A stretch of DNA of 64,000 bases from positions 27,905,001 to 27,969,000 of the forward strand of contig OY727095.1 of assembly GCA_963402885.1 (NCBI GenBank). The letters are read 5' to 3'. The stretch is from Antedon bifida. Its lineage: Eukaryota; Echinodermata; Crinoidea; Comatulida; Antedonidae. Shown here one piece after another: positions 2,318 to 49,146 of the stretch. How positions within the stretch are numbered: the stretch's first letter is position 1; each line of letters opens with the position of its first letter. The translations under genes were made by a program, and so were the position numbers. Below the pieces are notes generated by a model that searched no databases, had not been told where the DNA came from, and saw only the letters and a list, made by a program, of their open reading frames with translations.

Positions 2318-3150
2318 CCCGACTTTTTGCCACCTTAGTCCTTTTGCCACCTAGGCCATTTGTCACCCGGCCAATTGCCACCACCGGCCATTTGCCTCCA
2401 CCGGCCATTTGCCACCCGATATGTTGCCACAAACTTACTCATTTGCCACCCGGCCTGTTGCCATCTATAGGTCCATTGCAACTGCATTTTCCACCTTATG
2501 TCGAACTGGCGTGATTGCGTCAAAGACGCGCACGTAGGGTCTCTCTGGGATAAAATATAGGTCTATACTTTTTCCCGCCCTCAGTATAATTATTTGTGAC
2601 CAAGGTTGCAAATTCATTAAACCCTCTGGGATCCACATGCCTATGACCCTATTTTGGGATAAAAAAAATATCATCACGATGTGTAGATAATTAAGCCCTG
2701 TATTCTTGATGTTTAAATGCTGATTAAATGTTAATTAATCAGTTGTTTCGAATTTTTTATATCGAATATTGTTTTGTGACATTTAATTGAAGATGCTGAA
2801 TATCATAGCATGCTGTCCTGATGAAAATGAAAATTTAAAACAAAGCACGAAATTGGAATACTTTTTTTTTTATAAATAAAACCAAATGGTAAAAAACGTG
2901 GGCATACATGATATATATTACTTTAACAACTATCGGAAATTATCCCTAAAACCCTAAACATTTGGGTCTAAAGCATAGAAAAGCAATTTATTAAAAATGC
3001 AACACTTGAATTTGGACAACGGCGTCAATTTTAATATAATTGTAGGCCTAAAGAATTGCAAATGTTTATTAAATTTCTATTAAAATCAGATCTGGTGGCA
3101 AAAGACCGGGTGGCAAAAGATCGGTGGCAAAAGACCGGGTGGCAACATTC
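2318..3150. repeat. Foldback-like element with short-unit terminal arrays
   Basis: The left end (2318-2472) is a run of 13-17-bp units around GGCCATTTGCCACCC. The right end (3088-3150) carries the reverse complement, units of the form GGTGGCAAAAGACCGG. About 600 bp of AT-rich sequence without coding potential lies between them. Opposed arrays of subrepeats at the two ends are a known layout for foldback-type DNA transposons. The right array is also copied at about 3938-4000 by the tandem duplication starting at 2951. Confidence 0.5.
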
Positions 3151-4916: not shown

Positions 4917-7900
4917 GTCAAATTGTGGAGTTAATAGTGGATCATAAAGGCGACACTCTTCACCTATTTAATGAAGAAATAAAGTTGGAGATAGTGCCTG
5001 GAGCAATTGATAAAGAAAAATCAGTTAACGTTTCACTAGAAACATTTTCAGAGGAAATAGACATGTCAGTATTCCATCCTCTCGAATCAATAATATCACC
5101 CATAATTAAATGTGGACCAGAAGGAACGATCTTTAACAAGCCTTGCTTACTTTCATTTCCGCATGATGCTGTAAACGAAGAGTTTTGGGATTTCACTTTA
5201 CTTGTTAAAGATCGCGTTCAAGATAAATGGAAACAAATAAAATTAGAATGTGATGAAAAGGACATTAATTTTTCTTTAAAGAAATGTCGATGTTTTATAC
5301 AATTACCACATTTCACTTTGTATGCGCTTATGGGTCGTATAAGAAATCTTTCATTTATTAAGAAGAATATAATGTTATTGACTTTTGGAAAGAGGATTGG
5401 AAATGAAGTTTATCAAATTCAAATAAGACTGTGTATGCCAGGAGATAAAAAGGTAATTATTTTTTGGTTATTAAAATGTATTTCAATTTGTTTATATTTT
5501 CTATTATATACTTACATTGAATGTTTAAAATAAAAACTTATATTAAATAGTTGCTGTATTTAAATTATTCTAATGTAAAAAAACAGAATTCTGAGCATAG
5601 GATGTTTGCATTGACTGATTACATGTTTTCATAGTATCATCTGCTTTACTGGGATCAATGTTATTTTCGGTAATCGTTCACTCATGGAACATTTGATCTA
5701 TTTCCACTTTATATACCTACGGTATGTAAAAAACAAGACCAACACAATATGTAAAGATTTATGTATTATGTATTACATTTCGGAGAAAATTTATTAATTT
5801 TAAAAACAATGTCAACCAACTCATCAAACCACTAGGCCTATTATAAAATGATTTATTTCAGAAAATAGTTAAACATCACAAACGAAACAATGAGGAGCTT
5901 CTACGAACATCTGTAGATATACTTGCTTTGTATAAGGACATGAACATTAATATTGTAGTATCAAGCCAGAAATGGAATGTTCTTCACGAGGAAGTGGAAG
6001 TAAGTAACATTTCCTACAATTTCTTACAAAGTCTATTTTATTCTTCATTTGATTTCGTATCTGGTGCCGTGCATTATTTTCTCGCATTTTCAACGATTGA
6101 CGGTACTGTACTGCTGCACACAGTCTGATTTTTGTGGTAGGCTGGAGAGGAATGCGCGATCATTTTGATGATTACAGGTATCTATTCAATCACCTTATGA
6201 AAAAATCATTCGTGATTAAGGGTCAAATGTCAATATTGACCAATCATAGAACGTACCTATAAAACCAAATAAAAACTAATATTATACAATAATTGAATGT
6301 TTTCTCATCATGTTAATCAATCATATGCAATGTAAAAGAGCACATACATCAATTTCATCAGTTGACATAAGGTCAATTTCATCAGTTGATACATACATTT
6401 TAATATGCGTATTAGGTACAGTAGTTACTAAATAGATGCAAAGTTGTCCAAACTATGATATCGATGGTTTTAAAATAATCAAATTATTTTATCAGTCAAG
6501 TTTGTTATTTCAATTTTGAATAACATAATTATAATACTGTAATTAATAAAATCAGACTGTTTAAACACATTCAAGGCAAAACGCCTACTAAAGCTCATTT
6601 ACGAGAACTGGTCATGTTGATTTTAACCAACAACAATTTTATTTTTGGAAATGACCATTGCCTCTTACCTATTTATGGTACAGCGATGGGCACAAAAATG
6701 GCGCCATCTTTTGCAATATTTATGGGACAATCTGAGGCTAATTTTCTGTACCTTCAACCTATGATAAACCACTTGTTTGGTTTAAATACATTGACGAAAT
6801 CTTCATGATCTAGACCCATGGTGAAGATAATCTAGATTCATTTCTTCTGAATATTAATTCAGCCCACCCAACTATCAAATGTACAGCTACTAAATCCACT
6901 AGTACCGTTGACTTTTTGGACACTATAGTGACCATAGAAAATACACCCAAAACTTACCTATTCCGTAAACCCACGGATAAAAATATGTATCTGCTCCCCA
7001 ACAGTTGTCATCCCTAACACTGTACCAAAAACATACCATACCCTCTGAGCAGTACGTATCAGACGTATCTGTTCTTCAGATTTAGATTTTCAGAATCGTA
7101 AAGAGGAACTAACCGGACATCTCCGGAATAGCAATTACAAGAAGAAATGTCTATAAAGAAAGCAAAATATATTCCTCGATGTCAGACACTGACGTACAAA
7201 CTACGTCAGCAAAATTCGACCAGAGTGCCATTGGTCACAACAACCACACCCTAGGCTGCCTCCATTAAAGGATATTATTGAGAAACATATGCGCATTCTA
7301 CAGAACGTCTCAGGATTGTTTTTCCAGAACCACCCATTATTGCATTTCGTGTAGATCTCCCAGCCTTCGTGATATATTAGTAAGATACAAATTTAAAAGT
7401 TAATTTAACTCTCATGACAGTCAACATTTCGGCAACTCACCTCTGCGGCAAATCTTGCAAAACTTGTTCACTGGTTGACTCTACTGAAAAATGTAAGAGT
7501 AACCAAACTGGTCGCATTTTTCGATTAATTGTCTAACCAAAAAAGTCATTTATCTCATTTATACTGTAATATTTGTGGTGTCGGGGAAAAAACCGCTCCG
7601 TATGAGAATGAAAACATTAAAACTTGATCAACCTGTAGCCGAACATTTTATTTCAGCTGGTCACTCGATTGCAAAGTTATTGCAATAGACCACGGTATTG
7701 TGTGCAATGTAACTGGTGTTATATAAATGTCATTATTGCATATAGACCACGATGTCATTATTGCATATAGACCACGATGTCAAATTGAAGACAAAGAAAG
7801 CCACTGGGAATTACTACTTAAAATCACAAAACCTTTTGGACTTATCATTAACATCCCAGATCGGTAAAATTACTCCATTGACTACCTAAATTTAAGTTTC

Positions 7901-10131
7901 AATATTAACCACCATTTAAGCTGTTTTTTAGTTTTATTCGAAAAGTGTTTATATCTACCAAGTTTATATATCTACCTTCTTCGTTTTCTACCCAACTAGA
8001 GCGTGAGCTCGCTTTGCTCGCTCATCCTCTAGGAAGTGTAGACTATGGTTCTCGGAATGATAATGACTCGGCTAACAAAGGTTTTAGAAGGATATTCTGG
8101 CCTGGACGTTTTCGGTCGGTTACCATTTATTGAAATGCTTGATATTCTTAAAACTAAACCTACTCACTAACCAGTCGACGATAATTATTTTAAGCGATGT
8201 TTTATTGGGGAGGTGTTCCGGGCGTTTATTCAAATAAATACTATCCTAATTGATATAATTAATACATTATTCCGCGACATAGTGGACCCTTTTGGCCCAA
8301 GAAGGAAGACGTTTTAGACGGCTTGCAGCATGGGCAGAAGTATCCCAGGGTCCAAACGGGACACAGATAACGCACAGTATACATAAAGTCCTGGCAGATT
8401 ACTCGGCTATCGGGGTTTCACTCGATTTAAAACAAAAACTCTTATTATCAGTTTTCCCGATGTAATTGTATATACTTAGTCCCCACAATATACTCCTATG
8501 TTTTATGAATATGTTTAATTTGATCTTTATTAATGTACTACTGTACCTTCACACTCGCGGTCCGGAAAAAAAACTTAAATGACTATCGCAAACAATGGCC
8601 AACTAAGTTGAAACCAACCATGCAGGAAGTTGCAAGCTGATTGACACTTCTTGAAATTACTTCTACAGCGCGTAGGATTAAAAATCTACCGAAGAAATCA
8701 GAAAATTTTGTTTAAAACCCTTTATAATATCTTCCTAAAAGACATTTATATAACACCAGTTACATTGCGCACAATACTGAAGACAAATGCCGTGCAACTA
8801 GCGCCTTTTTCATGCTTTTCCGGTAATTTTCCACATAATATCGGAATAGACACAATGACAATAAACAGCGCTAAGACATCTTGCGACGCGCCCATATTTT
8901 GACTTTTCTAATTTTAGCTGAATTTCATTACGTTAAGAATGTTATCAAGGTGACATCAAGTAATATAGCTCTGGATCTTTCATCCGAATTGTGTATTTGG
9001 TGAGTACTTGAAAAAGACGACCAAAAAAAGAAATTAAAGTGCATTAGACCAAGGGAAAGTGTTCTATTATCGCAAGACTCAAAACATTATAAACCCAAAT
9101 ATCACTGCTGAGAAAGAGGCGATACCGAAGCTTGTGCCCGACTTGTCAACAAGACTATGCGCAGGAAACATTTTATAACAACAGAAACGAAGAGTAAAGC
9201 AAAACCTACTACTACATTTTTATTTAAAATAGAAGAAACGAATTATTTTAATTTAAATAAAAATTACTTGAAAAACAGTATAATGAATGATTTTGTATTC
9301 GTTGAATGGGAACATATTTGAATTAACTCGGCTCCGCCTCTTCCATAAAATAATCATAAGTTAAATTCTTACATTACATAATTTTCAAACTACTAGTAAT
9401 TATTTGCATGATCTAATCTTAACTTAAACAAATAGAGGCACATCTACAACCAGGATATATTGTGATGTTTTTAGTATGCCTACACTTTATAGACCTAATA
9501 AAATAATGTTTGAATAAAGATTTGAATTACAAATTAATTGAGTTTATACTTTGGCCTACCCATGACACAAAAATGAATATATATATGGTCTTTGGTATGA
9601 TATAAACAGTTTTAAAATTATTGGTATAAATAGTATTTTTTGTTGATATGATATCAAATATTTATACAGTTATGTTAATTACTGTAACAAAACAGTACAT
9701 TGAAATTACTATCAGTATAAATTACACAAAATATAATAGTTATTATTCACCACAGCAGTTATTTGAATCAACTATAGAGCCTTGAAGGTGACATTTTTAT
9801 TCTTTTTTATTCTATATTTCTTATAGACTATCACAGCTGGATACCTTTGGCGTCAAAGCCCAGAAAAGACATTTTATTTAACAAGAAATGATCCATCAGA
9901 AAATCTCTTAAGGGCAACAGTATCACTGTCACAGGATTCAAATGATATTCCGGAAGTACAAGTATCCTGTAAGTATAGTAATTGAAAGCAAACATTTATG
10001 ATGTAAGGGTTAGGTTGTAATTTTACCTGTCTTGGACTGTAATAAAGCGCATCATAATAACCAAAAAAAAGTTAAATTATTTAATATGTTATTTGTTACA
10101 GGTGATATTCGGGAATCAAGTTCAAAACCAG
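4917..10131 (+). CDS. ZU5-UPA module 1 (four exons, partial gene)
   Basis: The exons are 4917-5452, 5862-5999, 9827-9968 and 10102-10131, all with AG acceptors and GT donors. Phases 1, 0, 0, 1, 1 join without a stop to about 281 codons. Exon 1 is a ZU5 domain: IKLEIVPGAI, then FHPLESIISPIIKCGPEG, then CLLSFPHDA. It runs into the start of a UPA domain (ALMGRI, then GNEVYQIQIRLCMPGDKK). Exons 2 and 3 finish the UPA (LLRTSVDILALYKDMNI, then YLWRQSPEKTFYLTRND). ZU5-UPA pairs occur in UNC5, PIDD and ankyrins as signalling or scaffold modules in the cytoplasm. Exon 1 begins at an acceptor in phase 1, so coding sequence must lie upstream, but none was recognised in the window. No death domain or stop follows exon 4. 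Its phase fits the exon at 32370, so this may be the N-terminal half of one larger gene. Confidence 0.85.
6572..7995 (+). mobile_element. Penelope-like element copy 1, decayed
   Basis: The reverse transcriptase signature GTAMGTKMAPSFA lies at about 6681-6720. It is followed by a YRKPTD-type block (LFRKPTDKNMYLLP, about 6960-7000) and the remnants of a C-terminal GIY-YIG endonuclease at about 7430-7860. The stretch aligns end to end with the copy at 44.7 kb. The frame is broken many times. A 25-bp unit (GTCATTATTGCATATAGACC and five more bases) is doubled at about 7729-7780. It lies inside the intron between the UPA exons at 5999 and 9827. Confidence 0.85.
7996..9826. other. Intron sequence with unplaced repeat fragments
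   Basis: This is the rest of the intron before the exon at 9827. A palindromic block (GAGCGTGAGCTCGCTTTGCT) begins near 7997. A segment near 8215-8300 (GGGGAGGTGTTCCGGGCGTT) resembles a DNA-transposon end, without a partner that I could find. No coding exon was recognised. Confidence 0.4.
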
Positions 10132-10617: not shown

Positions 10618-11608
10618 GGGTGTCACGAAACCTGAGATCACGAAAGCTAAGACCCCATAAGACCTAAGATCACGAAACCTAAGACCCAAGACCTAAAGAT
10701 TACAAATTCTAAGATATACGACAGCTTAAAAACGACAGCCCGTTGAGTAAATACTAATTAATTCAACTAACTTTATTCTGAATACCTTAATGCACCTTAG
10801 AATTAGGTCTCATAAGTACTTTTATGAAAGAGATTCACATAAAAAGTAACTAATAAATACTTGGTATTACTTTAAAAACGTGTTTCTTGCACACTTTCGC
10901 ATACTCAACTTTCAATATTTTTGTTTCTATGGAGCGCCAAAAGAGCAACAAAAATAGAGGGCTAAAAACTCGATGGAATGCGTCTACATTTAACGCATTT
11001 ATTGGTGAAATGCACGTTTAATTTGTTCGATATATTTTGTCAATTTGTCAATAAAAATGCTGTAATATGTTACTGCTGATACTTTTCTATTATCAAAGAA
11101 TATTAATCGATCTTAAAATCAGCATCACTACTTGCACTAGGCCTAGTCATAAGGGAGACCTAAGGGGATATAATGAATTTGTCGATTTTATTCTCAAAGT
11201 TAACGAAACCGTGTAAAGTATCAACAGTAACGTTTTATTTGTATTGACAAAATATATTGAATTGAACATGATTATGATTAGATGGATTCCACATAGTTTT
11301 TAGCCCTCTATTAATGTTGCTCTTTTGGCGTTCCATAGAAACAAAATATTGAACATAGAGTATGCAAAAATCGCATGAGAAAAACGTCTGTAAAATCATC
11401 AATTTATTTAAAGAAGTTATTGTTATTTTATTGATTCTTTTTCATCTAATTCTAAGGTGTGGTATTTAGGATAAAGTTGGTTAACAAATTTAGAGTTAAA
11501 ATACAAGGCAGGTGCGAAACTATTGGTAATCTTAGGTCTTGGGTCTTAGGTTTCGTGATCTTAGGTCTTAAGGGGTCTTAGCTTTCGTGATCTTAGGTTT
11601 CGTGAAAC
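10618..11608. mobile_element. Foldback (long inverted repeat) element
   Basis: The left terminus (about 10620-10705, TCACGAAACCTGAGATCACG onward) matches the reverse complement of about 11526-11607 over roughly 80 bp at about 95% identity. Further inside, 10890-10975 pairs with 11290-11365 (GGCTAAAAACT, and CGCCAAAAGAGCAAC). About 10760-10815 pairs with 11445-11480. Nearly the whole ~990 bp therefore folds on itself. There is no coding capacity. The element abuts the broken 3' side of the Tx1-like LINE at 11626. A 17-bp inverted pair (TTGTATTTTAACTCTAA) at about 11490 and 11609 flanks its right terminus. Confidence 0.8.
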
Positions 11609-32369: not shown

Positions 32370-35300
32370 ATTTACCAGGTACTGTTGCTGAGGAATCTCG
32401 AGTGCAATTGGAGAAGCTGATTGTTGAGGTAGAGATTGAGTGTGGTGAGTTAGGAATCATAAAATAAATCGAATTACCTATTTGTAATAAAATAATAATT
32501 AAATCAACTTAATGGTGATTGAAATGCAATTCAGAATTAGAGGGTTTATAGTATCGATTTTAGCGGATTCTTCATACCATAACCATAATACGTACATGTA
32601 AACAAAACAGTTGACAGAATGTATATTATTCACCAGAGCGGGTGGTACGAAAACAGAGACAAGAGATGGGACACTCCCAGATGGAATTATCATCAGATTT
32701 ACCAGGTACTGTCCGTGAGGAATGTCAAAGTCAAGTAGAGTGTCTGACGGTTGAGGAAGAGGTTGAGAGTGGTAAGTTAAAAATCATAAAATTAGTTGTG
32801 TTGTTAGTTAGTTGGTTAAAATTAAAAACTTAAAATGTGATTGAAATTTAGTTTCAGTATTGGCTGAATTTTCTTCACTAAAAGAATAAAAGATCTGTAG
32901 GAAACAGAACTAAGTCAGCTGCAACTAACGTCTTAATATTGCGTTGATGTGTGAGCCTCTATTTCAGGAAACCATGAAAGCAGAGCCCAATATTTTGTAT
33001 CTCATATTTTCATTTTGAAGGTCAAGTTGCGGAATTAATGGTGATAAAGAATGAAGATATAAAGTTGAAAATATATCCTGGAGCATTTGAAGAAGGAAAG
33101 GCATTTGAGGTTTCACTTGAAAATTTTGCAGACGAAACAGACATGCCTATATTTCATCCCCTTGAATCAATAATATCACCTATCATTAAATGTGGACCTG
33201 AAGGAACGATCTTTAACAAGCCTTGTTTACTTTCATTTCCTCATGATGCTGTAAACGAAGAGTTTTGGGATTTCACTTTACTTGTTAAAGATCGCGTACA
33301 AGATAAATGGAAACAAGCATTGGAGAGTGATGAAAAGGGAACAAATTTCAATTTATACAAAGGCCGATGTTATATAACTTTAAATCATTGCTGCTTTTTT
33401 ACGCTTATGGGTCGTATTAAAAATACTTTAAATGTTAAGAAAGGTTTAATGTTATTGGCTTTTGGAAAGAGAATTGCAAACGAAGTTTATCAACTTCAAA
33501 TAAGACTTTGTAGGCCAGGAGATAAAAAGGTAATTACTAATTCAAATTATATTATTTTGTTATGATATATCTTACTTTAAAATTTTAAAATACACATTTA
33601 TGTTAAAACAATTTCTTTTATAACAAAGTAGGGTGTAACTTTGAGAAAAATAAAATATATGGTCTCCCTGAAAAAAAATAATTTAACATAATTTTTGATC
33701 AATGTCACATAATATGTATTTACCTTGACCAAAAATGGGATCTTTCAAACATGCATATTTGAATAGTTTTGAGTGAGTAGTCAATCGCATGCGGAAGAAC
33801 CAAATCAAATCAATCGAATAATATTGTATGCACTATAAATTCTTTGTTAAAACATTACATGTGACATTGATCATGATGTGCTTTCCTAGACGGTTCAGCT
33901 AAAGTACAACGTCATGTGTGCCAAAACAGTAATGTCAAGTTGAAATGCCGTCTAGAATCTAGACTCGTGTACGTGGTGTGCATACAGTACTGTAATTGTA
34001 TATGTATATATATATTTCAGAAAAAAGTTGAAGAGCACAAACGACACAGAGAGCAGCTTTTACGAACATCTGTAGATATACTTGCTTTGTATAGAGACAT
34101 GAAAATTACTGTTGCAGTACCAGACCAGAAATGGAATGTTCAGGAGTCAGTGCAAGTAAGAAACATTTTTGCAATAATATGATGCAATAGATAAAGTATT
34201 TTCTATAAGACTTTCCCCACAAATGTATACAATTTTTCGGCGCAATAATAATATCACAATATGTTTGGTATCGAAATAGTGACAAATAGATTTTCAGTTG
34301 AGCATACCATGATATATATGTCCTATTTCTTTTACAATTGAGGCAATTTGTTAAAGATGTATTGTCCCCCAAAATCATGAAAAATAAAGATTTTTAAAAT
34401 CGGACTTTGAATAGGCCATTTTGCAGTTTTAATGAAGTTGTTCACTTCCATAAGAAAAAAAACGGGGGAAAAAAATTATTTCACCTATAAAAAGACAAAA
34501 TAAACAGTTAAATTACCCAAAAACTCATTGTCTTCAAGACATTTTGACCATTTTTTGCTTTAAATTACATTTTTCTCAGGTAAATAAATTTTTTTCAGAC
34601 CCAATTTTTTGTGAGAGTGAATAACTATTATGTGACATTAAAATAACATATTTAACAAAAAAATTTAAAAAAATATTTTTTTTAGGGGGAAAATATATCT
34701 TTAAATCGACACCATTTCCACATTTTGTTAAATATTGCTCTTTGTTTGAAGGTGCACAGTAGTAATTGTGGTTTGTGCTGTAATGTTTTTTTATAAATTA
34801 AAGCAGAACGATATACAGTCTAAACCTTACAACGATTAATTTGAAATGAATACGTAAACAGTAAAGTTATTAGAATAAAATCTAAATAGTTAATGATAGA
34901 CATTTAAACTACCAATTGTCTCAATTTAATATTTCATTATTCAGCAGTAATTATCAACTGCAGTGCCTTGAAGTTGCATTATATATTTTTTGTATGATTA
35001 TGATTTCGTTTTATAGACTATCACAGCTGAATACCTTTGGCGTCAAAGCCCAGAAAAGACATTTTATTTAACAAGAAATGATCCATCAGAAAATCTCTTA
35101 AGGGCAACAGTATCACTGTCACAGGATTCAAATGATATTCCAGAAGTACAAGAATCCTGTAAGTAATTGAAATGGTAAAAGAATTACAGTTTAACCAAGA
35201 CAATCTAACAACAGTATTCTGAGCTCCGGAGATCAAAGGCTTTATCTGTGGCTACACGATCAGTTCCACGACTCTTAACAGACAACGCGCGCCGCGGTAC

Positions 35301-38300
35301 CTTCTCATTTACGTACCCCTTGGTCTCTGAGAGGCGTTCGTAAATGAAACAGTTCGTAAATGAGAAGGTTCGGGAAAAAAGCGCCCTCTATTAAAATCAG
35401 TGGTAAAAACATGTCCAAACAAATTCCCTATGTAAAACTTACTGTGCATAGTACAGTAAAAGAACAAACAGTATTAAAAATACAGTATAAAACAATTAAA
35501 TTTAATATGTAAATTAACACCTTAACTGCCAAAAATATTGATATTTTTGCTTTTGTTACACACATTCTCTGTACCAAAATTCCATCGTTTACTTTTTATT
35601 ATTGCATATTTTGATACAAACTGTCACGAACTTATTCTTGAAGTAATAATATCAAATCCGTTGTGGACTGCAAATATTTACATTTTTAAGCTACTATGTA
35701 CTGTATGTGGACAGCAAGTAAAATGGAATTCCCAGAAAAAAAATAGCTACGCGACGACTGACAACAAAGTTTTAAAATATTAATAAATAAGGGTCAAGTG
35801 TTTTTTTATATCGTAAAAACATGCACAAACCAAACTAATTTTTTTTTTTTTTTTTTCAATTTTTCTTTAATACATCGCAATACAAAAAAAAAGCAGACAG
35901 AGTAAAAAAAGAAAAATTATACATAATCAATTCTCCTATATAAACACCTTCTTATAAAATAAATACAGTTGTGCACATCAAGTCAGAATATAGTGATACA
36001 AATCTATGTTACAGAAGATTATCCCAGGCACTCCACTCTTCCCATTCTTCGGCTCTATTATTAATCAAACATCTAAACTTTTTAATTGTAAAGTAATATT
36101 TTACAAAGCTTATGAGGCCGGTGGGTGAGAGGAGGCCCGAAAACTTACTCTTATATATATACAACTTTAGTATTGACAAAAGTAAATTAATCCTATTGGA
36201 TGGTGTATTACTAAAAAGCAGTTCACTTTCCGAAACACATATGCGAATATCAAGATTTCGAGAACACCATTGAAAAAAAAAATTGCTTATCCATCTACTG
36301 ATATTACATTTACAGAATAAATGATAAACTGTTTCTCTTCTAATGTTACAAAAAGAGCAGTTATCTTCGTCGATGTACTTAATAATCTTAAGGTAGACTT
36401 TAGTTGTGAGGATACTGTTGTTAAGTCTGTATTGGAACCATCGTAATTTTATGTTGTCGGTCACATTAAAAGTTGCAACATTAATTCCTTCCCATTCATG
36501 TTCCGAGAATTCAACATTTAAGATTTTACCCCACTTTTGTTTAGCTTTACAGTTAAAGTCTTTGTTTTGAATAAACTTACTATAAAAAGCTTTACATCCT
36601 GTTTGGGGTTTGGTTATGGTTTCAAGTATGGGTAAATTTATTGGGTTTTGTAATTTAGTATTTATTTCTGTACCCAAAGAAGGGTATTTAGTTATAATTG
36701 CATCAATTAATCCATAGTATTTAAGGAAATTATTTTTTTTCACCTTATAGTGTGTTTTGAAGTTTTCATAACTAAGCAAGGTTCCTCTATCCGAGATTAG
36801 ATCATTTATGAACCTTACGCCACACTCATAATAATTGGTGTAAAAAATTGGAAAGTTATTGATTAGAATCGAATCATTCAACCATATTGGTTCTTTTAGT
36901 ACGTTATAGTTTGCAGATGCTGTTGAATTATGAATAGCAATAAACTCGGACCATGAATGGAGAACATCTCTCCAGAACAAATTGTTCATATTTTTCGACA
37001 GCCTCTGAATCATGCATGAGCCGTATTCAAAGATTGATTCAGTTTTTTTACCATGGCATATTTTGTTGAAAACTACATTGAGAATTCCAGTGTTGTTACG
37101 AATTCTTCGCATCCAACTAATCTTAACTGCCTTTATGTAACTGAAGATATCAATCATGTTAATTCCGCCATCCTTATACTCTCTAATTAGCTTATTTCTT
37201 TTGATTTTATCCTTTCCCTTCCAGACAAAATTAAAAAACATCCTATTAAGTTCACTTAGATAAGCTGTAGTTGGGTTTGGCAACATTGTAAAAATATAAT
37301 TAAGTTTTGATAATATTAGAGATTTTAACACAGTTAATCTTCCCAACACAGTAAGATTTCTCTTACGCCACACATTGATAGTAGACCTAATTTTACCCGT
37401 TATCTCTTCAACATTTATTTTAGTCATTTTGCTTATTTCTAAGTCAAATGTAACACCCAAAAAATCAAAACGGCCTTTATCACACCAGTCAAGATTTGAA
37501 TTAGTATTAATTTGTTCACTCGAGAACTTTTTTAATCCAAACCATATTGCTTTGGATTTAGAAATGTTAATTTTTAAACCAGACATCTTTTCAAATTTTG
37601 AAAGTGTACTCATGCATTCAGTAAGTGATTTGTGTGAGCCGTCCAGAAGAAATGCAGTGTCATCTGCGTATTGTAACATCTTAATCTCAGAGGTATCAAT
37701 TGTTACTCCTTTAATATTAATATTTTGGCGTACCATTATGTTTAGAATTTCCACTCCCAGAATAAATAGGTATGGAGATAGCGGATCGCCCTGTCTGCAA
37801 CCTCTTTCAATATTGAAAAAATTGCTGGGGTGTCCATTAACTAGAACGCATGAAGAGATATTCGTGTAAAAAAGTCTACACCATTTCTTAAGAGTTGGTC
37901 CAAAATTAAAGAAGGTCAAACACTTATCAATAAATTTGAACGCCAGGGAATCAAAAGCGTTCTCGAAATCTACCAGTAATACGAGACCAGGTAGGTTTTG
38001 TTCGTCATAGAGTGAGAGGATATCATATAAAATACGAACATTTTCTCCAATATATCTACCTTTTATAAATCCCGCTTGGTTTTCATTAATGATATTTGGA
38101 AAGACAGATTTTAGCCTCTCTGCTATGGCCGATGAAGCAATTTTGTAAGCAACATTTAATAGAGATATAGGACGCCAATTTTTTAATTCTTTTCTTGATT
38201 TATTCGCCTTTGGGATTAGAGTGATTGCTCCCTGTTTTTGAGTGACTGAAAGGTTACAACTTTTAAAGCCATATTTCAAGGAACGAAGAAGTAGAGCACC

Positions 38301-41300
38301 CAGTTTCCCCCAAAAAATCTTGAAAAATTCAGACGTAAAGCCGTCTGTTCCAGGTGATTTGTTGTTTTTCATTTTGTTGAGTGCATTTGTAAGCTCAGCT
38401 AAGGTCAATTCACTCTCCAGCTTTTGAGCTCTTCTTCTGAAACTTTTTCGAAGTTCTGGTTTGTTATTAATACGTTTAAATCTATTTGCTCTATATCTTT
38501 TTTTTTATATAAAGAACTGTAAAAACGCTCAACTTCCTTTATTATAAGTTTATTGTCCAATATAGTTTTTTTTTCTTCATCTATTAATTCGTCTATTAAT
38601 TTGTTCGTAAAGTTAGTTTTCTCGAGACCTAAAAAAAATTTGGTTGGCTTTTCAGCCTCTTCTATCCACTTAGCACGAGCTCTAATAAATGCTTTTCGTT
38701 TCGAATGTCTTCTAGGCGTGCTTTTTTTTGTTCAATTTCTTTTACTCTGTGTTCTGTGACTGTAATGTCTAATGTTTGTTGTGCGAGATCGTTTTCCATC
38801 TCTTCTATGTTATTAATTAATTCTTTTTCCAAATTACGAAGGGCTTTATTTTTTCTTGAACTATATTTTATTGTACCTCCACGAATATTGCAAAGCAACA
38901 CCTCAAAAAATAGTTGGTCATTTATAGTTAGATTTAACTTATTATTCTCTGGGTCTTTAGGTGTGGTGTTGGTATAGCTTTTAATCGTATTCTCTATAAT
39001 TTCATTTATGAGTGTAACATAATTTTGGTCATGGAGAAGTGAATTATTAAATTTCCAAAACCCCTTTCCTCTTTCTATACTTTTTAAATCAAGTGTTATT
39101 GTCACTATGGAGTGATCAGACTTATAACTTGGTAGGATGTTTGCGTTTGACACTAGGTGCAATAAATTGTTTGAGGTCAAAAAGTAATCAAGCCTTGCTT
39201 GTTTAAAAGGATTTTTTGATCGCCACGTATAGCGCTTCTCGTTTGGGTTTTTTTTTCTCCATATGTCACATAGATCCAAGTCTAGCATAATTTGTTGTAC
39301 AATTGTTTTAGCTTTAGGATTATTTACATGTCGATAGTTAAGTAGGTCTAGATTTTCATTTTGAACTAGATTCCAGTCACCGCAAATCAGAATGTAAGGG
39401 CTAGTGAATAATTCGATCACTTTTTTAACTTCCTGATAGAAAGAAGGATCATCTTTATTAGGCCCGTAAACATTCATTATTATTAAGTCAATATCTCTCA
39501 CTCTAATGTTGATCGCGATCCAATTACCATAGTTATCTTTTTTAACATCATTTATGGAGTATTCGAAATTGTTATTTAGCAGAATGGCGACTCCCCTAGA
39601 ATGTGATTTTCCATAGCTAATAAAACATTTGTGTCCCCACTCGGATTCTATTTGCGTTGTTTGTGATTCTACCCAATGAACGTCTTGTAAACAGTATATT
39701 GATAAGTGTTTCTCCCTTAAATAATTAAAAACGTCATTTCGTTTTTTCTTATCGCCTAGGCCTCTGCAATTGGCAGACATACATTTAATGTTACTTAACA
39801 TCTACCAATAAAAAGTGACTTCATTTGACAATAATCTGAGATAGGTTAGATCTGACTGCGTGCACAAACGACAGTTTACAGTATGTTTTATGACTAAGGT
39901 TAATACATTAGGAAAATTGATAAAAAAAACACAAGCAAAAAAGACATTTAACAACAATAATATAAAGCCTCATCATATCTTAAGATGTTTAAATTAGAAC
40001 AAACTTCCGTCCATCAGGATGAGAAGGAAAGAACCACCCCCAATACAAAATCCAAAATATTCTTTTCTCTTTATCTAATGTTTATTCCTTGTAAAGTTTT
40101 CCATTAATGTATAGACTCCCTTTCTTGAATAATACACGATTCCCTTTTTCATAAGCAGTTTTCATAATACCCTTAAATTGCTTTTTTGAGTTTAAGTCTT
40201 TATATGGTAGATCATCAGTGACAAAAATATCGCTATCCTTAAGGCAACTCCTAGCCATCTTTAGAATATCTGTGCGATCTGGTCGGGCTTGAAATCGCAC
40301 AATGATATGCCTTGGCTTGGGTCCTTTTCTTCCTATTCGATGGGCATTTTCAATGGGTACCCGTTTTTTGAAGTTGGAGGAAATTATTTTATCAATAGTA
40401 ATTGTACATACCTCCTCTGGGTTTTCAGCTATGCCACCAAACCTTAGGTTGAAGGACCTAGTATATCTTTCTAGGCTAAGTACTTCATTCTCTAAACTTT
40501 TTATTCTTTTGTAATTTTCATCCACTTCAGCCATTTTCTTGTTTGATTCTTTGATAGATTTGTTCATGTTTTCCGACGCTTTGACTACCTTATCCAGGCG
40601 TTCACTTTCAAAATCCAATGACAATCTGTAGTTTTCCTGCTTTTCTTCTACTGTATCCAGCCTCATATTGAGAGTCTGTTGATTTGTTAGAATAGTATCT
40701 AGCTTGTTGTTGATTAAAGTTTGATTTGCTTTCATAGTTGTTTCCAATGAAAGAAAGGTTAGCTTCAGTTCTTCCCGTATTTGTTCAAGCACCGAATCAA
40801 CATGTTCCACCTCCGTCGTGCTGTTGCTTTGTGTGCTTGGTTTCAGGCATGCGTTCGAATTCTCCGCCGTCGCCCCAGCTGCATCATCATTTGCATATCT
40901 GACACATTCCATATGCGCAGTACGTTCGATTTGTATGGGTGCCTCACCCAGCGTAATGGGGTGGACAGAGGTTGTTTCTCCCGCTTGGCTTTCATGTGTA
41001 AGCCCACTGGTATCACCTTTCTGTTGGAGCCTGGCCTGGGAATTATTTCTTCCTTTCGTAGTAAAATCAGTGATTTTATTTTTATTCTTGCTAGTAGCTT
41101 GCCTTGTCGTCGCCATTTTTAAGGAATCAATTCCTTAGTAATATGGAATATACCTGAATTTGGGTGAAAAATTCCTCTCACCTGACGAGCAGAAATGCAG
41201 CACGTCTAGTCGCGTTGCATGCTGGCTTGAATAGTTCTACTAAGTTCAAACTAAATTTTAGTATGGTCATCGTAGCTAGCCTTTTTGCATTTCGCGATCA

Positions 41301-43635
41301 ACCTTTGTTTTTTTCAAAACATGTGCAGGGTGCTCTCCATGCACTCCAGCAGTGTGGGGATGATGATATCCTGACCACTAGCTTAGGCCTAGACTAAGCG
41401 GCCTAGGCAACTTTTAGAAATAAATCGTGGATCGTTTTTAATAAGCTTTGCTTTAGTTATGAAGTAATTGTAATTGTTTTGGGATAGTTTAATAAACTAA
41501 GAAGATAATAAATTCATAGGTATGTAAAAGTTTTATTATATTACTGATGACGTCATCGTTCGAACGGCGTTCGTAAAATAGAAGTTTCGTAGTTGAGAAG
41601 TATGTAAATGAGAAGGTCGACTCATATTACAGTTTATTGTTATTTGTAGCAGCCAGACATAAGATCAGAGGACTGTTACGAGTTCCTATTCAATCCGATC
41701 TCAGTGTCCTGCTGTTAGATTGCCTTGGTTTAAGTAACCTAAAGTCTACATTTATGATAAAATACAAACAAATCACATCATTCATAAAGTACATTTATCT
41801 TTGCAATTGAATGCAATAAAGGTCACGATAATAACCAAATAATATGTTTTGAATTCTGTTAAAAACTATTAAATATGTTATTTGTTACAGTTGATATTCA
41901 AGAATCAAGTTCAAATACAGGTATAATATATTTATTTTTTGGACTACATAATTAGGTTGATTTTTTGTAATTTTTTAAACACTTTTTTGTAAATGCTTGA
42001 ATCACTTTCTACAATTTATGAAGAACTTACTGTTGCCTTTCCACAACTACTTATTTAAATATGTATAGTTGCTTTCCTAACATGTATTTTCCATTAAATG
42101 AGTGATATGAATTCAAGTATGCACTAAGTACGAAGTTAACAAATCAAATGTATGCTTTTCATAATATTATTATTTATTAATAAATATTTATTTCAGATCC
42201 GCACACATCAGAAGGTGATAGGTAATTATTTTAATTATTACTACATACACGTATGTCTGTGGGTTCATTGTATTATATTGATGTTTATAATGCAAAAAGT
42301 CCTTAGGTTAAACTGCCTAACTACTGAAAAAAAGGTCTTCCTAATTTTGCCAGATTTTGTATTTGACCATTTTAAGGGAAATTCATGTTTTTTCGTCTTA
42401 ATTTCTATTACAAATATTTGATTTATGTACAATTAACCATATATTATATTAACAGTTTGTTTGATATCATTTTCAGTCATTTTCAATCACACCCCGCACT
42501 CGGGCGATTTTCAAAAACATAAATCCTTCCCAGTACAAATTCCGGTTATGCTGATATTCCATTCCATAACCCCTCTGACAGTTTTCGCAGATTAAAATAT
42601 TATATTATATAATTCAAATACCGCTGAATTACCTCTGTCTCAGCATTCTTTCCCTCTCCCCCATTCCAGCCACAACGAACCTTAACTCCTCCCCTGGACA
42701 GTTCAAATGTAGTAAATGTTCCCAGTATAATTCCAATCATGTTGTACTTCATTAGCTTCAAACGCCAGTATCTCCACTCCAATCACCCCTCCCAGCACAC
42801 ACCGCACTTAGTGACGTGTTTAAAACGTTCCCAGTACAAATTATGAGCCATCACTCCTATAACCGGTCAGTGGCAATTTTCCTAGTTTAAAACATTCCCA
42901 AGGCTATAGATATTCGGTTCGGTTAATTCCATTAAGCCTAAACCCCATTCCCAATCTCCCAACCCCTTCCCGGGGATAATTAAAATACTTTAATCATTTT
43001 GGGTCATTTTAATACCACGTATGTATGCAAAAAAACATTATTTTGTATAACGAAAAAACATCCAAATTGTGGAGAAATGGGGTACTTTGACCCCATTTTG
43101 GCCGCTAACTTGGATCCAAGATGGCGGATAATTTTCAAATTAATTAATTGCGGTAATTTTGATACCCCGTAAGTAGATGTGTGCAGTAACAAATAATTGT
43201 ATAACGAACAAACGTACAAATTTTCTCACTTATAATATAGATGTATTTATTTCTAGCCTGAGAGAAAGGATACATACATTGGTCAAAGGTAATTGTACCT
43301 TCCGTTAATTTTAATCAAGTCCCGAGTCTATATAATTGAATGCATTATAGACTAGGTCCTAAATTATGAATGTATTTAATGACAAAATGGAAGAAAAGAA
43401 AACATGTTTAAAACAATTGTTGATGTCCCTATCAAAATTGAATGAACACAAATAAATCATAACGGAACCTTATAATCTAATCTTCATACAAATTAAAACG
43501 GCTTATATTATGTTTTTTGTTTTGTTTTTGTTTTTTTTTCCAGAGAACTGTGGCTTGATAATTTGCTGTATTTTTGTCGTAGTATTTGCATTATTGAGTT
43601 TGTTTATATATTATATCATTTTCATGAAGCATTAA
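32370..43635 (+). CDS. ZU5-UPA protein with C-terminal membrane anchor (nine exons, 5' incomplete)
   Basis: The exons are 32370-32444, 32637-32771, 33021-33529, 34021-34155, 35017-35158, 41891-41920, 42197-42221, 43257-43288 and 43544-43635. The second could instead start at 32697. Together they give 1175 nt, open in one frame to the TAA at 43633-43635, about 390 residues. The order is two related acidic exons (DLPGTV repeats), ZU5 (IKLKIYPGAF, FHPLESIISPIIKCGPEG), UPA (NEVYQLQIRLCRPGDKK, RTSVDILALYRDMKI, YLWRQSPEKTFYLTRND), then a short linker. The last exon encodes one ~23-residue hydrophobic helix (LIICCIFVVVFALLSLFIYY onward) and ends MKH. This predicts a cytoplasmic ZU5-UPA protein anchored by its tail. 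Family members usually have a death domain instead. Upstream exons are missing or belong to the module at 4917-10131, whose last phase matches. Confidence 0.85.
33668..33745 (-). mobile_element. Fragment of the ~350-bp MITE
   Basis: Interior sequence (TGTCACATAATATGTATTTA, then CCTTGACCAAAAATGG) matches the middle of the MITE copies at 28.4 and 34.35 kb. Both ends are missing. It lies in the intron after the ZU5 exon. Confidence 0.45.
34351..34703 (+). mobile_element. MITE, complete copy
   Basis: Starts TTAAAGATGTATTGTCCCCC and ends GGGGGAAAATATATCTTTAA, giving imperfect ~20-bp terminal inverted repeats bounded by TA or TTAA. It is 353 bp, non-coding and AT-rich. Related pieces lie at 28.4, 33.7, 51.8 and 58.2 kb. 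It sits in the UPA intron between 34155 and 35017. Confidence 0.75.
36009..39801 (-). pseudogene. LINE ORF2: endonuclease and reverse transcriptase, frameshifted
   Basis: The endonuclease part (39801 to 38662, 379 residues) begins MLSNIKCMSANCRGL. It shows LQDVHW, NVYGPN, ICGDWNLV and YKSDHSIVTITL, matching the metal-binding and catalytic blocks of APE-type nucleases. The RT part (38408 to 36009, 799 residues) shows NKSPGTDGFTSEFF, LIPKANKS, NWRPISLLNVAYKI, NQAGFIKGRYI, FENAFDSL, GCRQGDPLSPYLF and YADDTAFLLDG. A C-terminal Cys/His cluster follows (CSFCNIRRETVYHLFCKC). The two parts are in different frames. The ~85-codon linker between them (38410-38690) is readable in yet another frame, so at least two small frameshifts separate them. 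The rest appears undamaged, which suggests recent loss of function or sequencing error. Confidence 0.88.
40082..41116 (-). CDS. LINE ORF1 protein (L1 ORF1p-like, RNA-binding)
   Basis: 344 residues starting MATTRQATSKNKNKITDF. Residues about 1-95 are polar and probably disordered. About 105-220 form a heptad-rich coiled coil (LEQIREELKLTFLSLE, then MRLDTVEEKQENYRLSLDF). About 221-310 look like the RRM of L1 ORF1p (FNLRFGGIAENPEE, NAHRIGRKGPKPRHIIVRF). The end (LKDSDIFVTDDLPYKDLNSK, then RVLFKKGSLYINGKLY) looks like the C-terminal domain. L1 ORF1p trimers bind the element RNA. No internal stop is seen, whereas the copy at 23.6-24.45 kb is damaged. ORF2 starts about 280 bp downstream. Confidence 0.85.
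   Translation of the reverse strand: MATTRQATSKNKNKITDFTTKGRNNSQARLQQKGDTSGLTHESQAGETTSVHPITLGEAPIQIERTAHMECVRYANDDAAGATAENSNACLKPSTQSNSTTEVEHVDSVLEQIREELKLTFLSLETTMKANQTLINNKLDTILTNQQTLNMRLDTVEEKQENYRLSLDFESERLDKVVKASENMNKSIKESNKKMAEVDENYKRIKSLENEVLSLERYTRSFNLRFGGIAENPEEVCTITIDKIISSNFKKRVPIENAHRIGRKGPKPRHIIVRFQARPDRTDILKMARSCLKDSDIFVTDDLPYKDLNSKKQFKGIMKTAYEKGNRVLFKKGSLYINGKLYKE
41255..41559. other. Interior of the TIR transposon, non-coding
   Basis: The part of the ~1.1-kb TIR element to the right of the inserted LINE. No coding signal was seen. Confidence 0.4.
42480..43220. repeat. Degenerate tandem repeats in the ZU5-UPA intron
   Basis: From about 42500 to 42990 a loose repeat recurs around TTCCCAGTACAAATT and CACCCCTCCCAG words, at intervals of roughly 100-190 bp. 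From about 43006 to 43220 a ~140-bp unit occurs twice (AATACCACGTATGTATGC, TTTTGTATAACGAA; then GATACCCCGTAAGTAG, TTGTATAACGAAC). Between the two lies GACCCCATTTTGGCC. Copies are diverged and no function is evident. Confidence 0.45.
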
Positions 43636-44706
43636 AAATTGGCAGTAAGCTACATGTATCTACCAAATATATAATGTTAACTGACAAGAATGAAAATTGC
43701 TGTATGAAATACTTGACATCTGGTAGGTTTAGCAAGCTTACGAATTTGATTTGATAAAAACTAAAGGTCAAAAAATATAATTTTTTTAATGACGTTTTAA
43801 ATGAATCCTTTAATACATTTTTGACATAATAATACTGTACATATGTGAATTACGCACCAACACTATTTATAGGGACAGGAGCGACATTACTACAGGTGAC
43901 TAAACGTATTTAATTAGTTACGGTTTCGTATTCAAGTTAAAAGGGAACAAAAATGTAGGTACTGACTAAATGAGTAGCATGATTAAGGTGTTATCGCTTT
44001 ATGTACGATTAGATCGGATGAACTTGTAATTTGTAATATTTAATTAGACTTAACTTAAGGTAAATAATAATATAGTAACATGTATAAAATAGTTATATTT
44101 TGTTATGTATATTCGTAGGTACGTTATATAATGAAAGAATAATTTACCAGTTAAGGTAAACGGCATAGATTAATTGTAACATTTAATGGCATAGTGTGTA
44201 TTGATATGGAAATTAGTTTTCGATGTAATTGGTTATGAAGTTGCTGTGTAGACCACTTGAAAAGACATATTGTGACACCGGCGCACAGTGAGCCAAAATC
44301 TATTCAAAATGTGCCAAAAGTACAAAATGGGTGATGTGAAAATTATGTTTTGGTTTGATGAAGAAAACATCCTAAATTATAGGCCTACTATTTTGTGTCA
44401 TAAAGCGATGAAAACACCGGTTAAAACAACGACCGTTAAGTGCGCCAGCGGTGATGTTCATGTTTTGGCAAAAGCCTGCATTATAATTTTCGATTAAATT
44501 GCTTCCTTGGTGTTGCAAATAATTGCAGATGAATTTAGTATCAATGTAAAGCTTAGGATTGCTTGAAATGGTGATATTAAAATCAATGCAGGAATCACTC
44601 GAAATCCTAAATAATATACTGGTTTAACAAGAAATTAAATTATGGGTGGATTTTTAGAATTAATGTTCTTTGTCTGATGTGTTTATATATATTACAAACA
44701 AATTCC
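43636..44706. other. 3' flank of the ZU5-UPA gene, non-coding
   Basis: Probable 3' UTR followed by intergenic sequence. I did not find a clear AATAAA in the first several hundred bases after the stop. A short open frame near 44288-44497 shows no recognisable domain. Confidence 0.4.
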
Positions 44707-46740
44707 AGGCAAAACGCCTACTAAAGCTCATTTACGAGAACTGGTCATGTTGATTTTAACAGGCACAAAATGGCGCCATTTTTTGCAAATTTATTTATGG
44801 GACAGTTTGAGGCCAATTTTCTGTCCCTCCAACATAATAATGGTTTAGATACATTGACGACATCTTCATGATCTGGACCCAATTAGGAATCTTTTCTTCT
44901 TAATATTAATTCAGCCGACCCAACTATCAAATTTACAGCTACTAAATCCACTAGTAGGGTTGATTTTTTGGACACTATATTTACCATAGAAAATACACCC
45001 AAAACTTACCTATTCCGTAAACCCACGGATAAAAATATGTACCTGCTCCCTAGCAGTCGTCATCCCCGACATTGTACTAAAAACATACCGTACAGTCAAG
45101 CATTACGTATCAGAAGTATCTGTTCTTCAGATTTAGATTTTCAGAATTGTACCGAAGAACTAACGGGACATCTCCAGAATAGAAATTACAAGAAGGAATA
45201 CATCGAAACTGCTATAAAGAAAGCAAAAGATATTCCTCGATGTCAAACACTGACGTACAAACCACGTCAGCCAAATTCGACCAGTGTGCCATTGGTCATA
45301 ATGTAACAATCTGACCATCAGGTCAACAACCCTTTTTCACTATTTCTCCCTACTCCATCTATTAACATTCCTAGTGGTTTCTTCCTATCCCTAGGTACTC
45401 TTTTGTTCACTCTCCTATAACCCACATCCTTAATCAATTACTGTTTCCTCATCATCATGGAATGTTCCCTTTACTAAAAAGTCCCCTCTCAGTACATGCA
45501 TATTAATTAGGACCGTTCCTTAAATATGGATTACTGGTAGGAAGGAAAGAGAAGAGCTTGATAGAATAAAACGTTTATAATAGAGAGAAGAAAACGTATG
45601 TGATATAGTCAAAACAGACTGTATTACTTTGAATATTGAAATAAACTGTATCTGGACAAAACCATATTTACTGTTTGTACATTCTTTGACTGTGTGAAAT
45701 CCTGCCGCTGAGACTATATGATAATATAGTAACGGATAGGCTACACTAATCCTAGGTTGCCTCCATTACGGGCTATTATTGTGAAACATGCCCATTCTAA
45801 AGTCCACAGAACGTCTCAGGACTGTTTTTTTCGGAACCACCCATTATTGCATTTCGTATACCTCCCAACCTTCGTGATATATTAGTCAGATCCAAATTTA
45901 AGAGTGAAATTAACTCTCATGACAGCCACAATTTGGGCAGTCACCTTTGCGGCTCTTGCAAAACTTGTTCATTGGTTGAATCTACTGAAAAATTTAAGAG
46001 CAACCAAACTGGCCGCATTTTCGGATAAGACAATCAATTAATTGTCTAACCAAAAACGTCATTATCTCATATACTGTAATTTTTGTGGTAAACAGTACGT
46101 CGGGGAAACAAAAAAACACTCTCCCTATGAGAATGAAACAACACAGATCAGCTATCAAAACATTAAAGCTTGATCAACCTGCAGCCGAACATTTTAATTC
46201 AGCTGGTCACTCGATTGCAAATTTCAGAGTTATTGCAATAGAACACGATGTCAAATGGAGCGACAAAACTCGCAAAGACAAAGAAAACAACTGGGAATTA
46301 CAACTTAAAACCAGAAAACTTTTTGGACTTAACATTAGGAACATACTCCCAGATCGGTAAAATTATACCATTGACTACCAAAATTTAAGATTCAATATAT
46401 TAACCACCATTTTAGCCTTTTTTAGTTCAATTTCAAAATTGTTTATATCTCTACCAAGCTACCTTCTTTGTTTTGTACTCTTATTCAGTCTCCACCCACC
46501 TTTCAACACCCTGTATCTTTTGTTATATTTCTTTTATTACTGTCCACCCAGGCAGCACTTAGTTCTTATGCTATGACTTTATCCAAATTCCATCACTTGC
46601 ACTGATGAAGGGCTAGTGTTGCTCGAAAGCTCTGCTAACTTTTCTGGCTGTTTTATTTTATCGTTTTGATTTAGCTTTTCGCTTTTTTTGTATCTCCATT
46701 GTGATCCAGCCACTGATACCCACAACAATGTCATTTTTAC
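44707..46740 (+). mobile_element. Penelope-like element copy 2
   Basis: It starts with the same sequence as copy 1 (AGGCAAAACGCCTACTAAAG). RT motifs are FRYIDDIFMIW (about 44850) and TVDFLDT-like VDFLDTIF, then LFRKPTDKNMYLLP (45010-45050). Towards the 3' end lies a GIY-YIG endonuclease with its Cys motif (CNFCGKQYVGET at about 46075). The downstream helix (PMRMKQHRSAIKTLKLDQPA, then AAEHFNSAGHSI) follows to 46360. An RT plus GIY-YIG is the definition of Penelope-like elements. A ~450-bp stretch at about 45305-45745 is absent from copy 1 and looks like an insertion. The copy is not intact. A terminal repeat with a hammerhead-like core follows at 46600. Confidence 0.88.
46560..46740 (+). ncRNA. 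Hammerhead-like ribozyme core in the Penelope terminal repeat
   Basis: CTGATGA (46602-46608) is followed by a short stem-loop (GGGC, seven-base loop, GCTC) and CGAAA, then GCTCTGCTAAC. CUGAUGA, stem II and GAAA form the conserved hammerhead core, and Penelope terminal repeats are known to carry such ribozymes. The matching copy at 63.5 kb has GGGC/GCCC, so the pairing of stem II is kept (G-U against G-C). Stems I and III are short and I could not settle their pairing by eye. Confidence 0.5.
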
Positions 46741-47945: not shown

Positions 47946-49146
47946 TTATTCATGTATAGCATGGATTTTAGACTGTCGCCTAGTTTTCTTTTTAGGAGAA
48001 AAAACCTCGGTAACTGAAAGTTCTTTGTTAATCGTTTGCGGGTCCTTCCATCGCAAATAACGCGCTTTTTTAGCCTCATGAAAAGTATCGTCAGAATCTG
48101 GCAACAGGTGAATGGTTCGCAAACCGCCATCGGGAGCATATTTATTTTGATCAAACCATAAGGTTGGATTGGCTACTATGTCCGCTACATTTGTGTTCTG
48201 AATATTAGTATGCGGATCGGACATGATGTTTAAATTGGTCTGAGTATTCTCAATAACATCGTTATTAGTATGCGCAGCATTGTCCATTGGTGCTCGAGAA
48301 GGTTCACTCACCAACGGCGATGCCTCATTTCTCCGTGAAGAATATGGAGAAGTGGCTGTGTTATTAGGAATTGGTACACTAAAAATCGACGGTAATGTCT
48401 TCAAGTTGTTTGACACTTTTTCCTGATGTGACATTCTTCGTCTACTATCATAATTGTTTGGTATTCCTTTATAAGTAGAAGGTGCATTGCTAGAAGTTGT
48501 GGTGTGTTTCAGACCTTCTGTCAAATCTGCGACACGTGCTACTAACTTCTGTTGCTTCCTTGACATTTCTTTTAATCGTCGTTGGCTAATTGTCTGCTCG
48601 CGGCTACTTTCTTTTTTAATAAGTTGCATCTTTTGGTCATATTCCCTCTGCAGGGGTGTTGATTTTTGGGATAATTGCTTTGAATTGAAATGAATAGATG
48701 GCAATGAAGAGTCCGTGGTTGTAACAAGTTCTTCCGACATATCATTGTCTGCATCTTGAGGCTTACCGGCGGCACGTCTTCCATGCGTATAACGACCAAA
48801 CCGATGATGCTGCGAGCGACGAACGATTGCCCGATTCCCATTCATATATTGTCCTTTCGTTCGTACTTTTTGGAGCTCTTTTTGAAGCAACATCTGTTCT
48901 CTACGAATTGTATCCAAGTGCATTTTTTCTATTCCTCGCTCTCTGTCTAAATCATTCTGCAAATTTCGATTAGCAAACGAATTTTTTGCTTTCGCTCTGT
49001 CTTGGTTTCTAAAGATGTTAGAGGAAATATCCGACTCTTTGTTGTATCGATTCATTGTATACGCGGTCGTCATATTAATAAGATAGCTATAATTTGATTT
49101 TCATAAATACAAATCCGATTTCTTTGTATTTCTAGGCCTGTATTAT
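47946..49146 (-). CDS. Unrecognised coiled-coil protein, 375 residues, last coding exon
   Basis: A minus-strand frame of 375 codons runs from ATG 49073 to TAA 47946. An in-frame TGA 39 bp upstream supports this start. A TTTCAG acceptor at 49152-49147 suggests a spliced 5' UTR. The protein is polar and basic. Residues about 40-75 (LDRERGIEKMHLDTIRREQ, LLQKELQKVR) and 150-190 (QKMQLIKKESSREQ, RRLKEMSRKQQKLVARVADL) have coiled-coil character. The middle is Ser/Thr/Asn-rich, and the end is KKARYLRWKDPQTINKEL followed by a basic patch KKKTRRQSK. There is no signal peptide or membrane segment. The N-terminal helix faintly recalls CCDC190-type proteins, but I do not claim homology. The stop codon lies inside GAATAAAG (47945-47950), so a poly(A) signal overlaps the end of the frame. 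Confidence 0.75.

Follow-up and report, generated by a model that had tools for sequence, protein, structure and literature searches.

What is the role of a ZU5-UPA protein that ends in a predicted membrane helix at the place where many of its relatives carry a death-fold domain? ZU5-UPA modules act as the switch in the PIDDosome and in the CARD8 and NLRP1 inflammasomes, and the question was raised by a gene in a stretch of 64,000 nucleotides from Antedon bifida, the whole of which is here called the window. A sequence-only reading had joined nine exons of this gene in phase, and this was confirmed throughout, with in-frame joins, canonical GT-AG splice sites, exact exon boundaries and all nine exons open:

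32370–32444, forward strand: exon A, 75 bp, phase 1 to 1, reading DLPGTVAEESRVQLEK...
32697–32771, forward strand: exon B, 75 bp, phase 1 to 1
33021–33529, forward strand: ZU5 exon with the start of UPA, cleavage-site motif HCC
34021–34155, forward strand: UPA exon U1
35017–35158, forward strand: UPA exon U2
41891–41920, forward strand: mini-exon m1, 30 bp, with homologues in locus L033 and tandem unit 1
42197–42221, forward strand: mini-exon m2, 25 bp, with homologues in loci L033 and L034
43257–43288, forward strand: mini-exon m3, 32 bp, with homologues at four other loci of contig C8
43544–43635, forward strand: terminal (TM) exon encoding a hydrophobic helix, MKH and a stop, with homologues at four other loci of C8

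An in-frame ATG lies at 32666, upstream of exon B. The three mini-exons form, as had been proposed, a linker between UPA and the last exon, the encoded end of which reads ...KENCGLIICCIFVVVFALLSLFIYYIIFMKH before the stop and thus consists of one hydrophobic helix with three further residues.

The assignment of both ZU5 and UPA to the spliced product held for ZU5 with Pfam (PF00791, E 6.5e-14, 52.4 bits against a cut-off of 21) and for UPA with a family profile, but not for UPA with the Pfam model alone, which made no call on this single, too diverged sequence. The profile was built from seven members (the window protein, its tandem copy and five paralogous loci) and aligned to the ZU5-UPA structure of UNC5B (3g5b) with an E of 3.1e-14, spanning profile positions 10–243 of 259 (234 positions). 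The only other PDB matches at E 1 or better were two ZO-1 ZU5 chains, and because no chain of CARD8, NLRP1 or PIDD was matched at that level, the likeness to FIIND rests on the cleavage motif and its position. Genome-wide, the Pfam UPA model matched at just 4 places, a figure not taken as a count because UPA is split over exons. A structure prediction for the ZU5 exon, made from the two window sequences, had a mean pLDDT of 32 and was set aside.

The tail has a mean Kyte-Doolittle hydropathy of 3.15 over 19 residues, followed by MKH. When all 155 pyrimidine-rich acceptors on the two strands of the window were read in the needed phase, no other one led to a short terminal exon with a mean of at least 3.0, a cut chosen with the value of 3.15 already in view; a looser scan passed other frames, up to 2.98 within the LINE-like insert listed below. 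Scanning for short hydrophobic terminal exons after UPA in the window and the first 20 paralogous loci was unspecific, with many unrelated frames of at least 2.0, and the tail KENCGLIICC was absent from those 20 loci in that scan. When the DNA of the TM exon was searched against the whole genome, it was found in five places, namely the exon itself and four others at 14.06–16.29 Mb of C8, with 86–88% identity to the window's exon over about 60 bases. With m3 and TM from L033 as the query, each of these four loci showed m3 and then TM, at 98–100% identity (one of the TM matches covering 57 bases only), and the corresponding exons of the window were 87–90% identical to the same query. Two of the four loci were examined in detail. 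In L033 the order was m1, m2, m3, TM, splice sites were present and the mini-exons had the same lengths as in the window, and L034 had m2, m3 and TM, the m1 search pattern used finding nothing there. The two tails, reading SLKESIQTFAKENCGLIICCIVVVVLAYKHWK in L033 and SLKESIQTFVKENCGLIICCIVVVVLAYIWAL in L034, are shorter than that of the window, with 15–19 hydrophobic residues. The four other tail loci are recent copies of each other and not independent events. Between the window and L033, dN was 0.12 and dS 0.41 for codons 1–17 of the TM exon, as compared with 0.35 and 0.19 for the linker, all on small counts. A chance joining of exons was rejected because tail exons with splice sites recur at paralogous loci. 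The ZU5-UPA-TM layout had also been called unfamiliar, and indeed we found no description in the open-access literature of ZU5 and UPA together with a tail anchor or C-terminal transmembrane segment; however, the layout is not unique in this genome, where four more m3 and TM tails occur.

The window holds a tandem copy of the ZU5-UPA unit, and the intron between U2 and m1 of the membrane-tailed gene holds an insert:

4917–5452, forward strand: ZU5 exon of tandem unit 1, motif HFT, 72% identical to the other ZU5 exon of the window
5862–5999, forward strand: UPA exon 1 of unit 1
9827–9968, forward strand: second UPA exon of unit 1, with almost the same sequence as U2 at 35017–35158
10102–10131, forward strand: mini-exon m1 of unit 1, 30 bp, sharing 25 of 30 bases with m1 at 41891
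36009–41134, reverse strand: LINE-like open reading frames in the U2-m1 intron, an insert absent from the tandem copy

That intron is 6,732 bp long, and a doubt had been raised about the splicing between 35158 and 41891. In the tandem unit m1 starts 133 bp past U2, so that the 6.7-kb intron would reflect the insertion of this element, which we take to be of LINE type, and the short intron of the copy appears to answer the doubt. Comparing the two ZU5 exons gave a dN of 0.17 and a dS of 0.34 (overall dN/dS about 0.5), with one 30-codon block lacking any amino-acid change, from which the exon is considered to be under constraint. The block around the cleavage motif had a dN of 0.44, exceeding the dS of 0.35, as was also the case for U1 (0.19 and 0.13). 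The two U2 exons differ at about three sites (dS 0.03) and, by eye, their flanking introns soon cease to align, which looks like exon-sized gene conversion.

Other elements were noted in the window in their own right. Just upstream of the tandem ZU5 exon, at about 2940–4630, roughly 850 bases seem by eye to be present twice in tandem, and at about 10620–11600 there are, again by eye, inverted arms rich in words of the cctaagatcacgaaacc type, resembling a small inverted-repeat element. The repeats at 6563–7499 and 44696–46000 are related (about 84% identical, with a short piece at 97%), and their frames resemble those of Penelope-like elements. An open frame of 384 residues, many of them polar, at 47946–49100 on the minus strand, is possibly an exon of an unrelated gene.

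At the border of ZU5 and UPA, HF[S/C/T] was found in all of the 24 paralogous loci analysed and, as HFT, in the tandem copy, while the membrane-tailed protein has HCC there, which is not of the [H/S]F/S type. In the profile alignment the Phe of the family motif falls on a Leu of UNC5B, and as UNC5B Leu-677 is the residue equated with CARD8 Phe-296 in the accessible text of PMC3210808, the family motif sits at the expected position of a FIIND-type cleavage site. The same text gives HF/S as the self-cleavage site of PIDD and SF/S as that of CARD8 and NLRP1, with a change of Phe to His abolishing or severely impairing cleavage in PIDD, Nup98 and CARD8 (PMC3210808). We infer that self-cleavage of the HCC protein is poor or none; it may persist, since some intact relatives likewise have Cys as the third residue of the motif, but on its motif the membrane-tailed protein is probably cleavage-impaired.

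The family behind this protein is large. ZU5 matches in the genome at E 0.001 numbered 82, counted exon by exon, and a search with the product located ZU5 exons at 51 places (E 1.1e-31 or better), of which 41, including the two of the window, are on C8. The 24 paralogous loci (L009–L032, 9–10 kb each) contain several near duplicates, such as L019/L020 and L022/L025. Exons of death effector domain (DED) type lay downstream of ZU5-UPA in 15/24 loci, where downstream means after ZU5 for L021, L022, L029 and L031, in which U2 was not found, and where the examined stretch may end too early in the loci lacking such an exon. They lay upstream of ZU5 in 7/24, whereby we rejected a uniformly C-terminal placement of the DED; five loci had them on both sides, seven on neither, and L022 and L025 upstream only. 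A stop closes the downstream DED exon in L010, L012, L015, L026 and L028, and in others, for example L011, L013, L016, L017 and L018, the exon continues into a donor-like GT. As for their identity, one DED exon passed the Pfam cut-off (E 6e-10) and three others fell below it (1.2e-4 to 0.022). A profile of eight DED sequences had PEA-15 as its best PDB match (E 0.005), with FADD at E 0.14 and above, ranked after two designed TPR proteins, and phmmer with one DED exon gave no match in PDB. The best reading is that the membrane-tailed protein belongs to a large expanded ZU5-UPA gene family, many members of which appear coupled to DEDs.

The sequence-only reading had placed the helix where a death domain would be expected. 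The helix is there, but the domain found at that place in the relatives is a DED (15/24 loci). Within the window, tblastn with three DED exon queries gave nothing better than E 1.2, none of the best 150 of 631 and best 150 of 429 genome candidates for DED exons fell there, and neither did any of the best 150 of 241 genome places for Pfam Death; a hidden DED in the window was thus not supported by tblastn or by the genome-wide DED matches listed. The DED expansion as such is very large, with 631 and 429 first-look candidates for two exon types on C8 (mainly 14–17 Mb) and other contigs. Separately, contig C12 has death-domain and ZU5 exons (7330409–7330648 and 7331338–7331613), with the death domain about 0.7 kb upstream on one strand, an exon order that suggests Death-ZU5-UPA genes in that cluster.

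With a rough probability of 0.38, we propose that this predicted tail-anchored and probably cleavage-impaired protein captures UPA-DED fragments derived from its relatives and keeps them at a membrane. The tail would be inserted in the membrane with ZU5-UPA toward the cytosol, and relatives with an intact motif would self-cleave between ZU5 and UPA in the manner of PIDD, CARD8 and NLRP1. Loss of their N-terminal part would free UPA-DED fragments able to assemble through UPA, and the membrane-held HCC copy would pair with these via UPA and ZU5 contacts, holding them inactive as a tethered trap or brake. The predicted build is trap-like because a cytosol-facing ZU5-UPA would sit on a membrane, with ZU5 still attached and with no death-fold domain found in the window. 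There are mammalian parallels, as far as the accessible parts of the cited papers go. Full-length NLRP1 that resists cleavage inhibits the ASC assembly driven by the C-terminal fragment (PMC11760013), NLRP1 in its autoinhibited, DPP9-bound state keeps UPA-CARD sequestered through pairing of one UPA with another (PMC8081665), UPA-CARD is freed by loss of the N-terminal part of NLRP1 or CARD8 (PMC8081665, PMC7794386, PMC11760013), and UPA lowers the assembly threshold of CARD8 from 15 to 0.25 uM (PMC7794386). The recurrence of the tail, the downstream DED exons of the relatives, the HCC motif and the constraint on the ZU5 exon also speak for the proposed trap. Against it count the excess of dN over dS in U1, around the motif and in the linker, the shortness of the other tails and their origin as recent copies, the lack of profile matches to CARD8, NLRP1 or PIDD chains at E 1 or better and the partial dependence of the mammalian trap on DPP9, and capture between paralogues through ZU5 and UPA is an assumption here.

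It is nearly an even chance that the nine exons are the C-terminal part of a longer gene starting in or before the tandem unit at 4917. Such a gene would encode a cleavable ZU5-UPA (HFT), a non-cleavable one (HCC) and then the tail, and cleavage of unit 1 would leave UPA1-ZU5-UPA-TM on the membrane; this would fit either a trap or an activating platform, and its odds are not exclusive of the other readings. Since the block Z-U1-U2, m1, A and B share phase 1 at both ends, a single gene could comprise the tandem unit, A, B and the remaining exons of the nine-exon gene. In L026, furthermore, U2, m1 and the next ZU5 exon lie within about 1.5 kb, four ZU5 exon pairs lie 3.4–5.7 kb apart on the same strand, and L033 has A/B-type exons between m1 and m2. 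On the other hand, 22 kb separate 10131 from 32370 in the window, and the ATG at 32666 could begin a shorter, single-unit protein. Three of the four other tails lie 20.7–23.4 kb downstream of a ZU5 place and the fourth has no ZU5 closer than about 82 kb among the matches listed. Two of the four have a HEPN_DZIP3 exon between the ZU5 place and the tail:

C8:14066135–14066476: HEPN_DZIP3 exon, 5.6 kb upstream of a tail
C8:15723291–15723635: HEPN_DZIP3 exon, 6.2 kb upstream of a tail

The region C8:14060300–14085639 has, in order, two DED exons, ZU5 (HFS), UPA, an m1-like exon, HEPN_DZIP3 (about 9.8 kb from UPA), m1, A/B-type exons, m2, m3 and TM, a series that may form one gene.

The main rival to the trap, which we hold to be rather doubtful, has the same anatomy and the opposite sign, such that the tail would concentrate ZU5-UPA on a membrane platform where its UPA aids the assembly of UPA-DED partners. 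The tail-anchored adaptor MAVS is comparable in spirit. The effect of UPA on the CARD8 threshold (PMC7794386) argues for this platform, since a membrane would raise local concentration further. Against it, the tblastn search with DED exons found no death-fold domain of the protein's own in the window, and ZU5, which restrains UPA in NLRP1, probably remains attached given the HCC motif. Also unlikely is a FIIND-type switch that became a membrane device in this lineage with the UPA side tail-anchored, whose self-cleaving copies would release DED-ZU5 from the membrane, as the exon order at C8:14.06–14.09 Mb might allow, the window copy being a locked, DED-free brake or dock. If true, the polarity would be opposite to that of CARD8 and NLRP1, with the effector carried by the N-terminal fragment of a FIIND held at the membrane. 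It is distinctly improbable that the gene is a degenerate or non-functional copy, a former DED gene now lacking both its DED and its cleavage site and carrying a LINE-like insert. The insert in the U2-m1 intron, the altered motif and the excess of dN over dS in U1 and near that motif would suit such decay, but the nine open exons with canonical splice sites, the overall dN/dS of the ZU5 exon, the recurrence of the tail at other loci and, on small counts, a stronger protein-level conservation of codons 1–17 of the TM exon than of the linker all speak against it. That the C-terminal hydrophobic stretch is a GPI-attachment signal or exposed degron and not a membrane span, as its terminal position after small residues (NCG) and the shortness of the other tails might suggest, is very improbable, as the ZU5-UPA modules of known proteins are cytosolic and the hydropathy mean suits a full span.

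Returning to the proposed trap, its setting can be compared with known systems. Marine invertebrates have described expansions involving DED, TRADD-N, HEPN and FIIND, among them DED-type genes with HEPN, FIIND or ZU5-UPA as fusion partners (PMC8195603), and the present family resembles them as a lineage expansion of DED genes fused to ZU5-UPA and HEPN; it differs in that the accessible text of that paper describes no ZU5-UPA with a C-terminal membrane helix. The findings indicate that ZU5-UPA-DED genes have expanded greatly in an echinoderm, and COX1, with AAA read as Asn at conserved positions, fits the echinoderm genetic code. With a natural family whose output domain is replaced by a membrane anchor, one can ask how UPA acts when no death-fold domain follows it and at which cellular sites ZU5-UPA switches reside, and the many intact self-cleavage motifs of the genome provide internal controls for asking if cleavage-impaired copies act as brakes. 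As in CARD8 and NLRP1, in which FIIND is followed by CARD, ZU5-UPA lies near the C-terminus, and the relatives share with these proteins a self-cleavage-type motif at the same place and, in 15/24 loci, a death-fold domain after it, albeit DED instead of CARD. The window gene differs in having a membrane helix in place of that domain and HCC instead of SFS. With PIDD (LRR, ZU5 twice, UPA and death domain) the relatives share the HF/S-type motif and possibly more than one ZU5 unit per gene, whereas the window gene has a membrane tail, no LRR seen and no death domain. MAVS likewise has a single C-terminal helix with few residues after it, but carries its own CARD, unlike the window gene, for which no death-fold domain was found in the window. 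Finally, the ZU5-UPA pair had been regarded as cytoplasmic in known proteins, which is true in general but needs the qualification that UNC5 receptors are membrane proteins, with the tether on the N-terminal side of ZU5; UNC5CL is likewise anchored N-terminally. UNC5B is the best structural match of the family profile and UNC5 proteins also keep ZU5-UPA tethered to a membrane, but they end in a death domain, whereas the window gene carries its tether at the C-terminus.
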